DNA from: Hyperoplus lanceolatus
Taxonomy: Eukaryota; Chordata; Actinopteri; Uranoscopiformes; Ammodytidae
Assembly (NCBI GenBank): GCA_026929865.2
Contig: CM049416.1
Coordinates: 13,632,001 to 13,696,000, forward strand
Length of the DNA stretch: 64,000 bases
Reading direction: 5' to 3'
Shown piece after piece: positions 48,601 to 54,600 of this stretch. A program made the position numbers and the translations under genes. The notes under the pieces are model-generated. The model saw nothing but the letters and a program-made list of their open reading frames with translations, was not told the DNA's origin and did no database searches. Within the stretch, counting starts at the first letter, position 1. Every line of letters starts with the position of its first letter.

Positions 48601-51600
48601 GAGGGGCCACTGCAGTTGAGACAGTGCTGTCAAAACTGACTCCAGTTATGTACCGAAAATGTTGTACACAGAAACATACACACACATTACTTAGCAATGG
48701 TTGATCTTCTCAAAGAGTACCAGTCTAAAATGGCCCCGGGGTGGCGAATGGACTCGAGCTCTATCTAAAATTAAACAACGTCAAAGCCTCACATTATACT
48801 GCAGAAATACAGCAGTAGTCATGACTCTTTGTGAAACACACACACACACACACTTTTTAAGATTATATAAATCCACTTCAAACACTGTTTGCCCAGTGAT
48901 GTTTTGTGTGTGACAAAGATTAAGGGTCAAATTTTCTATCACCTGTGTTCACAGTTTATCAGTGGAAATCCTGCTGTTGAACAGTTGTTGCTGTAGTAGC
49001 CTTTGTTTTCCAAGTGAATAACACATTTTCTCATTTCCTGAGTCTGCTACTGTTCAAACACTGCAGCTCTCCAGTGCAGCAGACTCATTAGTTTTTTAGG
49101 TTTTACTGATGGTTTGTTTGTTTCTGTGTGAGCATGAATGTCCACATACTGGCCCTCATTTAGCAACCGTGCGTAGACCAGAAAAGTGGGTGTACGCACA
49201 TTTCCACGCAAACCTCGGCATTTATCAATTTGGACGTGAGCGTAGGATACGCTCAAATCCCACGCCAGCTCTCAGCTCGTGTACGCAAGTTTGAAAACAG
49301 CATGGACTCGCAGTGCAGGCTGTGCCGGGTAGCCAAAATGAAACTTTTTTTTTTTCTACGTTCGCTGTTATGCTGTCAATTTCTACTTAACCCATTGATG
49401 ACTATGGCAATCTAGGATGCATGTCCTTAATGCCTGAGGGTTTTCTGAAAATATAGTACGAATTGTCAAGTCTACCAAAACCTTAATATCTAAGCCTGTG
49501 TAGCACATAGAAACATGAAATAAAATACATTAAAAAGTTAAGGTTCACAGGTTTTATTTAAACATGCTCCCTTAGCACTTACACAACAACAAATTTTTCT
49601 AAAAATCGTCAAAATTAGATGGGGGAGAAAAAAAAGAATAAATAATATAAAATATTTAGTGTGATTTTCGTCAGTAGCCTATAGTGGACCTTGATTCTGC
49701 GCACCAAATGCCACTAACTCTTCTGTAATACACTATCGCTGACACAGCCAGCTTATTTTTTTTTATTATTTTGTTTTATTTTTAATTTTTAATTTTTTTG
49801 ATTGATGTGATTTTCGCCAAACCACACAACTTTTGGGTGATCACGTGGTCTTAAAAAATCAACAAAACCCACCTCATGTGTATTTGAACCAATGACAGTG
49901 CATTCTATGCTGCGCATGCCATGAAAATTAGATAAAGTAACAATGCTGCACGATGCAGCATCAGGCAGGAGAGGCAATGTGGCATCGCGCAGCAGCCGTC
50001 ATCAATGGGTTAAGAGAAGTTCCACTTCTTTGCCGTAATGCGCATATCCAAAACCTCTGGGCGAGGCCACTAAACTGAGAAAATATAGGGGCGTGATATT
50101 CAAATTAAGATTGTTTACAGCCGCCGCATTTATCAACACTGATCTCTGGTCTGCTGAGATTTGCGAGGTACAACAGTTTGATAAATCCCACGCGATACCT
50201 GGCATAGGATGATATTTACGCCAGGATCTGCACCAGTTTCCACGCAAGTTTGATAAATGAGGCCCACAGTGTGTATGCACTCATATTCACTGGTGTTTTT
50301 TTTGCAGGCAGCTGCTGAAGACAGAGCTGGGCTCTTTCTTTACTGAGTACCTTCAGAACCAGCTACTCACGAAAGGCATGGTCATACTGAGAGACAAGAT
50401 ACGCTTCTATGAAGGTACACAACACACAAACACAATGTAATCACGCTTTCAATATTTCACACACACACACACACACACACACAAAGTCAGACTGAGCCCT
50501 TTAAGAGGTGAGAACAAAACGCTGAAATCAATTTGTTCTCTCTGTTGTGGTAAATTTCTGACCTTTTACCTGAGGCACCGTTGAAATGATATGAACAGTC
50601 ACACATGCTCATGCACAGCACTAACGTTACAGCAGCCAGACAGGAAGCAATGATGTACGTCAATTACATAACACCCGGTGCGAAATTGAAGATAAGGCAA
50701 ACCACTGCTGAGTAATGAATATGCCTGCAAAAAACATGACGCTTCAAGAATAACTAGTCATTCTCGTTAATAACCTGAGAACACTGTGACATTTAGGTTT
50801 GTATCCCCAAAAAGTCTAGGCTTACTGTAATCAGAGGCATATGCACCATGATAATGTGATAGACTGTGTTTTCTGTGCCACAATCATTTTTCAGATTTAG
50901 CTTGAGCCATTCAACCTCAAATACTCATGCTTCATCCAGTTTTGTAGGTTTCACAATTTACCTCTTGTAGTCTTTAGCTATCCCTTGCTGAGGCACTGAG
51001 CCACAGGATTTGCTTACTAAACCTCTTTAATACATACAGTCATTTCCACTTAAATACCTTTAAAAAAGACAAAGACCAAAACAAAGAATGTTTGCAAAAA
51101 AAGAAAGAAAAACCCGGATAGCAATTCACATTCTTAGGACCAATATTTGGTTCAATATGGTCTCTTGTGTCCAACATGTAGGATATGAAAGATTTGCATG
51201 GAATTAATAACACCAACCTCTGCAATAATAACAATTCACATGAAGTGATAAATAACGCTCCTAAAATATAAATACAAAACATCATAGCATATTATCTCGT
51301 GTTGACTGTGTGTGCTAGACAGTGTTCTTGCTCTTTGTGGTTGTCTCCTGATTAGCAGTTTGTCTTTCTTTGCTTGTGTGTTATAGGTCAGAAGTTGCTT
51401 GACTCCCTGGCCGACACATGGGACTTTTTCTTCGGTGATGTTCTGTCCATGCTGCAAGCCATCTTCTATCCTGTACAGGTACACACACACACACACACAC
51501 ACACACACACACTAAAATTCTATTCTCCTAACAAAAGTGTATGTTGATGTGTCTGTGTGTGTGTGTCTGTGTGTTGTTTCTCAGGGAAAGGAGCCGTCAG

Positions 51601-54600
51601 TGCGTCAGTTGGCTCTGCTCCACTTCAGGAACATCATCACACTCAACCTGAAACTGGACGAAGCTTTGTCTCGACCCCGAGCCAGAGTCCCTCCTTCTAT
51701 CATACAGATGCTGCTTATACTACAGGTACACACACACACACACACACACACACACACACACACACACACTATCACTATCACAATCACTATCACTCTCCTC
51801 CACACAAGCCTTTCAACAAACGGCGTGACACAGACATCATGACTGATGTAGGGTGAGGGAAGAGAGTAAATGACACTAGCTGGGGAAAGAGGAGGAGAGG
51901 GTACACAGAGGGAGCTGTAGCCATATTTCTTGCAAAGGGATCTCACAGGAAGTCATTTCAGTGTGAACACAGAGTGCAGTCGTTTTTTCCCATGACCATT
52001 CACTGCAGTTTACACCCCGTCTGTGTTGGTGTGTGGGAATCCTCCATGTTTACACTGTCTTCTAAGACACTTATGTCCTCACAAAAACAGAAGGAAATTG
52101 GTTAATTGTAGATCTGTTAAGTGACGAGTGATGTGTCTCCTGTGGATACTTTGCTTCAGTTGTAAACACTTTAACATAAACTGAACCACAAGATTATTAT
52201 TATATCTATTTAAAAAATAAACAAATTAAACCTCCTACAAGGAACTTTTCAATGTTTATGTAACAGTATAATTGCTCCTCTGATGATCATAAAGGACCTT
52301 TAACCGCAAACAAGACCATCAGCAAATTTTTATATAGCTATTATTAATGCCTTTGCACGGATTCCTTTTAATGCTAACTGCATGGAAAGTTCTCGGAGCC
52401 ACTTCAACTAACTATTGTTGGGGCTGACACAATTGTTCTTCTATTGAGACATTTTAGCAGTGGTACAATAACCAACCATATGCTGGGTAAGAGAGATGTC
52501 TTGTAGAACCCACTGGAGTCCATTGGACATCGTAGTAGTGACTCATTGACCCAAATCTGCTGCTTCTAGACTCCAGAAAGGGAACGGTATGGAGATGAAA
52601 AGACACAGGAATAGAAAACTTTTTTATCAGGCGTGTAGAGATAGCCTATATCTGTTTTTTATTGTTTGCCCACATTGAATATCAAATCAAGAGAAAGCAT
52701 GTAAATAGGATGAGGAAAAAACTTCAAAGCTAAAGACATTAACGCAGCCTGGAAAGCAAGGCAGCTAAACCAAGATGTTAAGTGTTGGAGAGTTAAAATT
52801 CAGCACTAAATGTTTGCCCTTTTTTTCTCGCTACTATTTGTTTCATCTGTTAGTAATTTCCCTTTCATTCTATGACGCCAATGCAGCGAAGTCTGGGCTA
52901 TTTATGTGGTTTGTTTCTGTGCTGTGGTTTTTCTGCACAGGCTCAGTGATTCGGAGAGCCGAAACTTGATTAATCTCTCCTTTTGTTATTTGAAGACTTT
53001 GTATTAAAGGTCTTGGTTCATATGTATCACAGTCTGCTCAGAATTCAAATCTGCTCTCAAGGGGTATGAAAGTAGTGGAAGTGACTCGAACTTTGAAAAG
53101 GGAAAAAAAAAAATGATTTCACCCAAATATGCGAACTGTGATATGGTTTTATCTACGCAAGAAACAAGGAGCCTGAAACATTCAAAGATAAAAATTGTAT
53201 ATTTATTTATTCTTCTTAATGGCCTTGAGTTCATGATGCAGCACCAAATAGATTATGAGGGGTAACTTGTTTGCCAGCGATCTACTTATAAACAGCATTT
53301 ACATCAAGGGCACTGTGCATTTGAGTCTCGCTGCAGAGATGAAAGCTGTATAATGCCTTTGTTTCTTGGCGACAGTGCAGAAACAATTACGCAGGACCCA
53401 TCTGCAACAAACAGGGCAATAAGGGCACCGCACATGCAGAGTGGATGTACGGTGAAGAGGGATGCATGCAAGGTTTTCAAGCTCCTCTTCAAATGTCTGC
53501 CTTTTTTCTGCATTAAGCAATGTAGTTGTAATTTGTGCTGTGATAGCAGATGCAGCAGTATCCTAAGCTTGTTCAAGTCAATAAGGTTGAGCCAACTTGA
53601 ATGCCGTTTGAAATTTGACATTCATTCATATGCATTTTCACTTCCCTCACAATTCTGTCTAAATAAATGTATATTGCATATTTATATTCCGTGTTTTTTT
53701 GTCTGAATTGAGCAAAGCTGTTGATGTTTTTCTTATCTCAGTATGTTAATGAAGTTTAAACAAGACTAAAGATTAGGGCCAAATTCACTCTCAGCTGTTT
53801 TATTCATGTTGTCTTATGGCCAGGTCTCTAAAGGTTTTGTGTGTCCTATTGGCAGCGGTCACCCTATTATATTTTGAAACTTAAACTTGAGCAAGCTTAT
53901 GAGGGAGAAAAATAACAGAAAGCCATATTAAACTCTTACTTTTCTTTTTTTCCTCAGACATGTTTTCATACCTTTTTAAAGTTTCCATTACCACCTGCCC
54001 AGAAGCAGCAACTACTGGCTAACACAAACTTGTGTGTGTGTGTGTGTGTGTGTGTGTGTGTGTGTGTGTGTGTGTGTGTGTGTGTGTGTGTGTGTGTGTG
54101 TGTGTGTGTGTGTGTGTGTGTGTGTGTGTGTGTGTGTGTGTGTGTGCAATGCAGGGAGTTCATGAATCTCAAGGTGTAACAGAAGACTACCTACGCCTAG
54201 AGTGTCTCATCCAGAAGGTGGTCTCCCCATACCTTGGGACTCATGGCTTGTATTCCAGAGATGAATCTTCCAATTTGCACTACTCCTCCTGCCTATTAGG
54301 TATACAGTATGTGTGTGTGTGCTTGTGTCGCTGTGTAAAAGTACAACAATGGCAGTGCTTTTTAAGGTTGTACTTGTAGTCTATCTGGCTATTTTGCCTG
54401 TTTTCAATTATATCTTAATTGAAAAAAAAAATATTTCTCTTTTTTTTCTCTTCCTCTTTCTCTCTCTCCAGAAAAGCGTTTACAGCGCTCCTGGCCCTCC
54501 AAACCAGGGAACTCCCCCATGGTCAAGAACCCAGTGGTACGCTCCAAGAGCTACAACGTTCCCATGCTGACCCCTGTGGTGGAGTACCACGTGGACTTCT

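Follow-up and report, generated by a model that had tools for sequence, protein, structure and literature searches.

Two consecutive AC-GT introns in prr5 of Hyperoplus lanceolatus: possible bridging of intron ends and a predicted pairing conflict across an in-frame exon

We analysed a window of 64,000 nucleotides from Hyperoplus lanceolatus (GenBank assembly GCA_026929865.2, contig CM049416.1, positions 13,632,001 to 13,696,000 of the forward strand) in which two consecutive introns of a prr5 gene, intron 5 (I5) and intron 6 (I6), begin with an AC array and end with TG-rich sequence. Judged by their anatomy, the two introns add new cases to the AC-GT intron type published for fish, which is reportedly found in roughly one of every ten zebrafish genes. 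The explanation that we tentatively favour, and to which we give slightly less than an even chance, is that both behave as AC-GT introns, with the ends of I6 bridged by an RNA helix and I5 removed early. This explanation is consistent with the non-random position of the arrays, the predicted pairing of each intron's own ends, the weak I6 acceptor and weak donors, the CTAAC motifs lying 5' of the TG runs, and what reviews say of this class in fish. All coordinates below are positions of the window, and all features are on the + strand.

I5 (51479-51584; 106 nt, phase 0) consists of the donor GT followed directly by (AC)16 (AC1, 51481-51512), an interrupted TG-rich run whose longest perfect stretch is 13 nt (TG1, 51545-51575), and TTGTTTCTCAG at its 3' end. 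I6 (51726-54154; 2429 nt, phase 0) has a donor GT followed directly by (AC)21 (AC2, 51728-51769) and later a perfect (TG)58 array near the acceptor (TG2, 54031-54146), ending in CAATGCAG. AC at the 5' end and GT at the 3' end are found within one intron in both cases, perfectly in I6 and with an interrupted TG run in I5. The exon between them (51585-51725; 141 nt, 47 aa, phase 0-0) could be skipped in frame. An earlier sequence-only reading of this DNA had given the same introns, and its coordinates and sequence for both, with AC at the start and a TG-rich run or (TG)58 at the end, proved exact. The published fish class that it invoked does exist: in two reviews, AC and GT-rich tracts are described as building a stable structure across an intron class of fish and lamprey (PMC7404189, citing Lin et al. 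2016), and dinucleotide-repeat hairpins between opposite intron boundaries as mediating zebrafish splicing without U2AF2 (PMC9198270, citing Lin et al. 2016). Through such reviews the class was traced to Lin et al. 2016 (Genome Res. 26:12-23), which is also cited in PMC5766209 and PMC6883713.

The splice sites of I5 and I6 are supported because reading frame and homology agree. Joining nine exons gave a 475-aa open frame that matched the Pfam domain HbrB (PF08539, E=2.3e-13, 50.9 bits against a cut-off of 22.7), the domain of the HbrB/PRR5 protein family. This match bore out the earlier assignment to prr5 at the level of the family, within which we take the product to be PRR5 rather than PRR5L. 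Searched against PDB sequences, the prr5 protein gave no match at E<=0.001. In total, 25 introns (8 in prr5 and 17 in a wnk gene upstream of it on the same strand) were placed by hand, guided by reading frame and splice motifs as well as by Pfam matches and known protein sequences. The splice-site matrices were rough, and the scores serve for ranking only.

The donors of I5 and I6 share the sequence CAG/GTACAC (the slash marks the splice junction), which is weak beyond +3 and scored 0.4. The two acceptors differed. That of I5 scored 6.0, in the range of ordinary acceptors in these gene models; the idea that I5 lacks a pyrimidine tract was rejected on this score, and although I5 does end in a TG-rich run its acceptor seems to need no help. 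The I6 acceptor scored -0.9, ranking 25 among the 153 AGs scored from 51760 on, and no tract lies beside its AG, as had been read from the sequence. The highest-scoring acceptor-like AG on the + strand of the window (53957, score 14.5) lies inside I6, 197 nt upstream of the acceptor at 54154, and forms part of a putative decoy acceptor, TTAAACTCTTACTTTTCTTTTTTTCCTCAG (53928-53957). The decoy was rejected as the true 3' end of I6 for the coding product, as its use would add 197 nt, shift the frame and bring an early stop, whereas 54154 continues the protein. With a weak I6 acceptor and weak donors, there would be room for a further signal.

By motif match, a candidate distant branch point of I6 is CTAAC at 54019-54023, whose A (54022) lies 65 nt downstream of the decoy and 132 nt before the AG, inside a 146-nt AG-free zone. 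The parts of I6 thus follow each other in the order decoy AG (53957), CTAAC (54022), UG array and AG (54154). In I5 a candidate CTAAC lies at 51528-51532; its A (51531) is 53 nt away from the 3' splice site, and an AG at 51537 comes just 6 nt past that A. According to PMC7969005, AGs more than about 8-12 nt past the branch point are used as acceptors. CTAAC lies a short way 5' of both TG1 and TG2; since the + strand of the window holds 48 copies of CTAAC, these two are candidates only.

The positions of the arrays were compared with random placement (100,000 shuffles, floor p<=1e-5), with gene models fixed and arrays treated as independent. Perfect AC or GT arrays of at least 30 nt numbered 12 in the window, ten of them inside the 25 introns and two (36322 and 39458) outside. 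Seven of the ten intronic arrays lay no more than 20 nt from the matching splice site against 0.21 expected (p<=1e-5), and chance position near splice sites was rejected. Four of the seven were sense AC arrays at donors and three were sense GT arrays at acceptors; the opposite arrangement was never found. Leaving out I5 and I6, 4/7 arrays were splice-adjacent (0.16 expected, p<=1e-5). With arrays of at least 20 nt the count was 7/12, or 4/9 without I5 and I6 (p=5e-5), and dropping the doubtful (CA)28 array of prr5 intron 1 (I1) left 6/10 (8-nt distance test, p<=1e-5). One of the GT-end assignments is affected by the wnk acceptor at 10126, which could be 10138 instead, in frame. As the enrichment persisted without I5 and I6 and at the lower threshold of 20 nt, we conclude that the position of arrays at splice sites is a genuine local pattern.

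Pairing was then predicted at equilibrium, without proteins, transcription order or splicing, and at 37 C unless stated. When folded alone, I6 gave AC2-TG2 pairing of 0.999 and I5 gave AC1-TG1 pairing of 0.78 per base. Among the 25 introns, I6 had the strongest predicted own-end pairing energy (-98.7 kcal/mol) and I5 the second strongest (-42.4 kcal/mol).

Several results weigh against bridging as we propose it. When the segment from 51387 to 54299 was folded as one RNA, the predicted topology was wrong: AC1 and AC2 both paired with TG2 (0.999 each), leaving TG1 without an array partner. The earlier proposal that the arrays could pair within each intron agrees with the folding of each intron alone, where a helix across the intron is predicted; in the joint transcript the model prefers AC1-TG2. 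AC starts were predicted to pair well with any TG end, and the start of I5 favoured three other ends over its own. Predicted pairing also begins at or beside the donor GU and could hinder U1. Similarly weak donors occur in several introns without perfect arrays (for example 0.2 at 20395, -0.4 at 10487 and -1.1 at 54300). Lastly, an AC start and a GT end did not coincide in the same intron above chance: the 25 introns include four AC starts and four GT ends, two introns having both (Fisher p=0.106), and one-ended introns occur in the same window, with a GT end only in the wnk introns ending at 10126 and 10821 and an AC start only in the wnk intron starting at 18122 and in prr5 I1. That the two ends go together in one intron is not supported within these 25 introns.

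These counts bear on the view that the arrays are neutral microsatellites of a repeat-rich genome, kept near splice sites where they are harmless (AC repeats contain neither GT nor AG, and GT repeats contain no AG) and conferring no gain of function. (AC)n/(GT)n arrays are indeed common in the window, all seven splice-adjacent arrays of at least 30 nt have the harmless orientation that filtering predicts, and the co-occurrence of ends was at chance level. Tolerance alone, however, predicts no excess near splice sites, yet seven of the ten intronic arrays lie there against 0.21 expected; T-rich acceptors could seed TG slippage, but donors would offer no obvious AC seed. We regard the neutral explanation as doubtful.

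The joint fold suggests a conflict between the arrays. Predicted duplex energies were -42.1 kcal/mol for AC1-TG1, -49.6 for AC2-TG1, -69.0 for AC1-TG2 and -90.5 for AC2-TG2. Before TG2 is transcribed, pairing across the exon was predicted between TG1 and AC2 (0.73 for RNA ending at 51800 and 0.85 for RNA ending at 52200), TG1-AC1 pairing being 0.10 and 0.00, respectively. Once (TG)58 is present, the modelled equilibrium state would hold both AC arrays, with the in-frame 141-nt exon looped out. Two separate self-closed hairpins were rejected as the stable state at this TG2 length, since in the equilibrium model TG2 takes up both AC arrays; capture of AC1 by TG2 in the full-length transcript was also predicted at 25 C.

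The outcome depended on the length of TG2. In a reduced transcript, crossed pairs were favoured at 6, 12 and 16 units (TG1-AC2 0.62-0.66, AC1-TG2 0.25-0.74), 21 and 26 units gave two self-closed introns, the result was mixed at 30 units, and AC1 was captured by TG2 at 37, 45 and 58 units; 21 and 26 were the sole self-closed cases of the nine lengths tried. The full-length transcript agreed, being crossed at 12 units, self-closed at 24 and captured at 37 and 58. In these models, two self-closed hairpins would survive if I5 leaves first or if TG2 has about 21-26 units. This length series, together with the phase 0-0 exon, is what favours reading the tandem arrays as a regulatory switch in which their relative lengths determine whether the 141-nt exon is spliced normally or is skipped (or back-spliced), a reading that we consider very unlikely. 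Its more specific form, in which TG2 acts as a hub for both AC arrays and its length relative to (AC)16+(AC)21 sets self-closure (about 21-26 units) or a looped-out exon (about 37 or more), is likewise highly improbable in our view, and that the prr5 isoform ratio would be a polymorphic, kinetically proofread trait seems to us a very long shot. The case for a switch comes from the equilibrium model with its simplifications, and a protein that lacks the 47 aa beside the HbrB match would probably be impaired.

Bridging could escape this conflict through the order of events. I5 is short, its acceptor is near-normal and its hairpin probably forms once it has been transcribed, so that it is probably spliced out while the (UG)58 of I6, some 2.4 kb downstream, has yet to be transcribed. 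Such early removal of I5 would avoid the pairing conflict; should I5 stay in place, the equilibrium model has (UG)58 taking up both AC arrays, which would favour loss of the 141-nt exon. Within I6, a long helix is predicted between AC2 at the donor and (UG)58 at the acceptor, and this helix would draw the ends of the 2.4-kb intron together. The UG array also appears to space CTAAC from the AG by an AG-free zone, and because of this zone the first AG met after branching would be the true one.

Alternatively, the arrays may not pair at all, each serving the splice site beside it. The UG array would then be a PUF60-type tract that picks the CTAAC at 54022 and silences the decoy at 53957, the CA array would aid the weak donor via hnRNP L, and a lower need for U2AF2 would stem from PUF60, not from structure. 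We consider this account possible, though on balance not probable. It gains from the two wnk introns that have a TG array at the 3' end but no AC start, one of which, however, fits poorly: in the intron ending at 10126, the layout departs from that of I6 in that the nearest YTNAY (10034) precedes an unused AG at 10059. By itself, this account also leaves unexplained why I5 and I6 have both arrays. Moreover, UG repeats are also a binding site for TDP-43, a protein that can cause exons to be skipped, with CFTR exon 9 as a reported example.

The closest parallel for recognition of I6 without pairing is exon 6 of human GANAB, in which distant branch points are closely followed by a UG-rich segment of 27 nt; once this segment was deleted, the natural acceptor was lost and a cryptic one a short way 5' of the branch point came into use (PMC6093180). 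UG-rich tracts are also reported before mutually exclusive exons that PUF60 activates (PMC7969005). I6 has, by motif, the features of such acceptors, namely a candidate branch motif far from the AG and directly 5' of the UG tract, a long AG-free zone and a cryptic acceptor just upstream, and it shares the order of parts of GANAB exon 6. It differs in having a pure (UG)58 without the UC-rich segment that GANAB carries, and in having an AC array at the donor. The evidence for PUF60 is human, and according to PMC6093180, PUF60 alone failed to restore splicing of some RNAs without U2AF65. For the other array, hnRNP L has been linked to CA/AC repeats and TARDBP to GT repeats (PMC4947485 and PMC13174678), which is in line with recognition without pairing.

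Within these 64 kb some TG-ended introns have an AC start and others lack one, and for this reason the locus can separate the two accounts of a reduced need for U2AF2, structure on the one hand and recognition of the UG tract by PUF60-like factors on the other. If the arrays bridge introns, two consecutive ones are also a natural test of how a donor is matched to its acceptor when the wrong partner binds tighter. The tandem had been put forward as a good test case; two consecutive AC/GT introns are indeed present, but the case is less simple than supposed, the arrays being predicted to compete across the exon. What this locus adds is this tandem-array conflict, the layout of I6 with a decoy and a candidate distant branch point, and the TG-only introns as internal controls.

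A TG repeat just upstream of an acceptor is also a feature of the CFTR (TG)m(T)n acceptor, which I6 resembles in this respect; the I6 array is far longer, lacks a T tract and has an AC partner within the same intron. I5 and I6 resemble the introns of Lin et al. 2016 in having AC at the donor end, GT at the acceptor end and a possible helix. Compared with that class as reviews describe it, they stand in a row on either side of an exon whose loss would keep the frame, the I5 AC array is predicted to pair more strongly with the GT array of I6 than with that of I5, and a strong decoy acceptor lies inside I6. Among the literature matches listed, no title named tandem AC-GT introns or prr5 repeats, most subscription papers lying outside that search.

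The remaining prr5 introns in the hand model are I1 (42634-46888), I2 (47078-48138), I3 (48220-50307), I4 (50415-51386), which opens GTACACAACACACAAACACA with an imperfect AC start, I7 (54300-54471) and I8 (54772-55353). I1 was set by reading frame; its donor opens GTAAGTGCACATT(CA)28, with the array at 42647-42702. Its acceptor (46888) scored -11.6 and is doubtful, and the first prr5 exon and the (CA)28 case are doubtful for this reason. Among short arrays, two exceptions to the orientation of the longer ones were the I7 donor, GTATACAGTATGTGTGTGTGTG (54300-54321), with a GT array of 12 nt lying 10 nt inside it, and the I2 donor, GTTTGTGTGTGTG, which is below the array threshold.

The wnk gene was identified by a CCTL2_WNK match (E=2.1e-15); a match of a wnk open reading frame to Filo_VP35 (E=0.36) was taken as chance. 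One wnk intron ends in (GT)27 TTCAG (10068-10126), with a donor at 9490 without AC. Another ends in (TG)71 TAG directly before the CCTL2 exon (10677-10821), with a donor at 10487 without AC; here the pyrimidine tract lies beyond the array, and the AG-free zone is 192 nt. A third starts with GTGA followed by a 51-nt AC array (18122-18176), its acceptor at 18987 lacking a GT array. The segment 20021-20318 is a probable GC-AG intron (AAAA/GCAAGT), backed by continuity of the reading frame. The wnk introns 16045-18046, 20621-21732 and 21925-22409 may contain further exons, and the first of them shows a phase mismatch. The wnk splice sites counted were those from 9232 on, outside the stretch at about 22.5-26.3 kb.

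Between the genes, at 39009-39188, CTGCAG/GTACACACACACA is followed 160 nt on by TTTTTTCTAG/(GT)10; both resemble splice sites beside arrays and are putative. Within I1, 43236-44873 forms a near-perfect palindrome of what we take to be Tc1-like transposase sequence; each arm spans about 0.7 kb, and its pieces are 89-100% complementary to the other arm. The palindrome lies between (TG)36 (43126-43198) and a CA array (44925-45085), so that a very long RNA hairpin is possible. I3 contains an element of about 1.1 kb (49143-50273), perhaps a short DNA transposon, whose inverted ends of 35 nt are 77% complementary.

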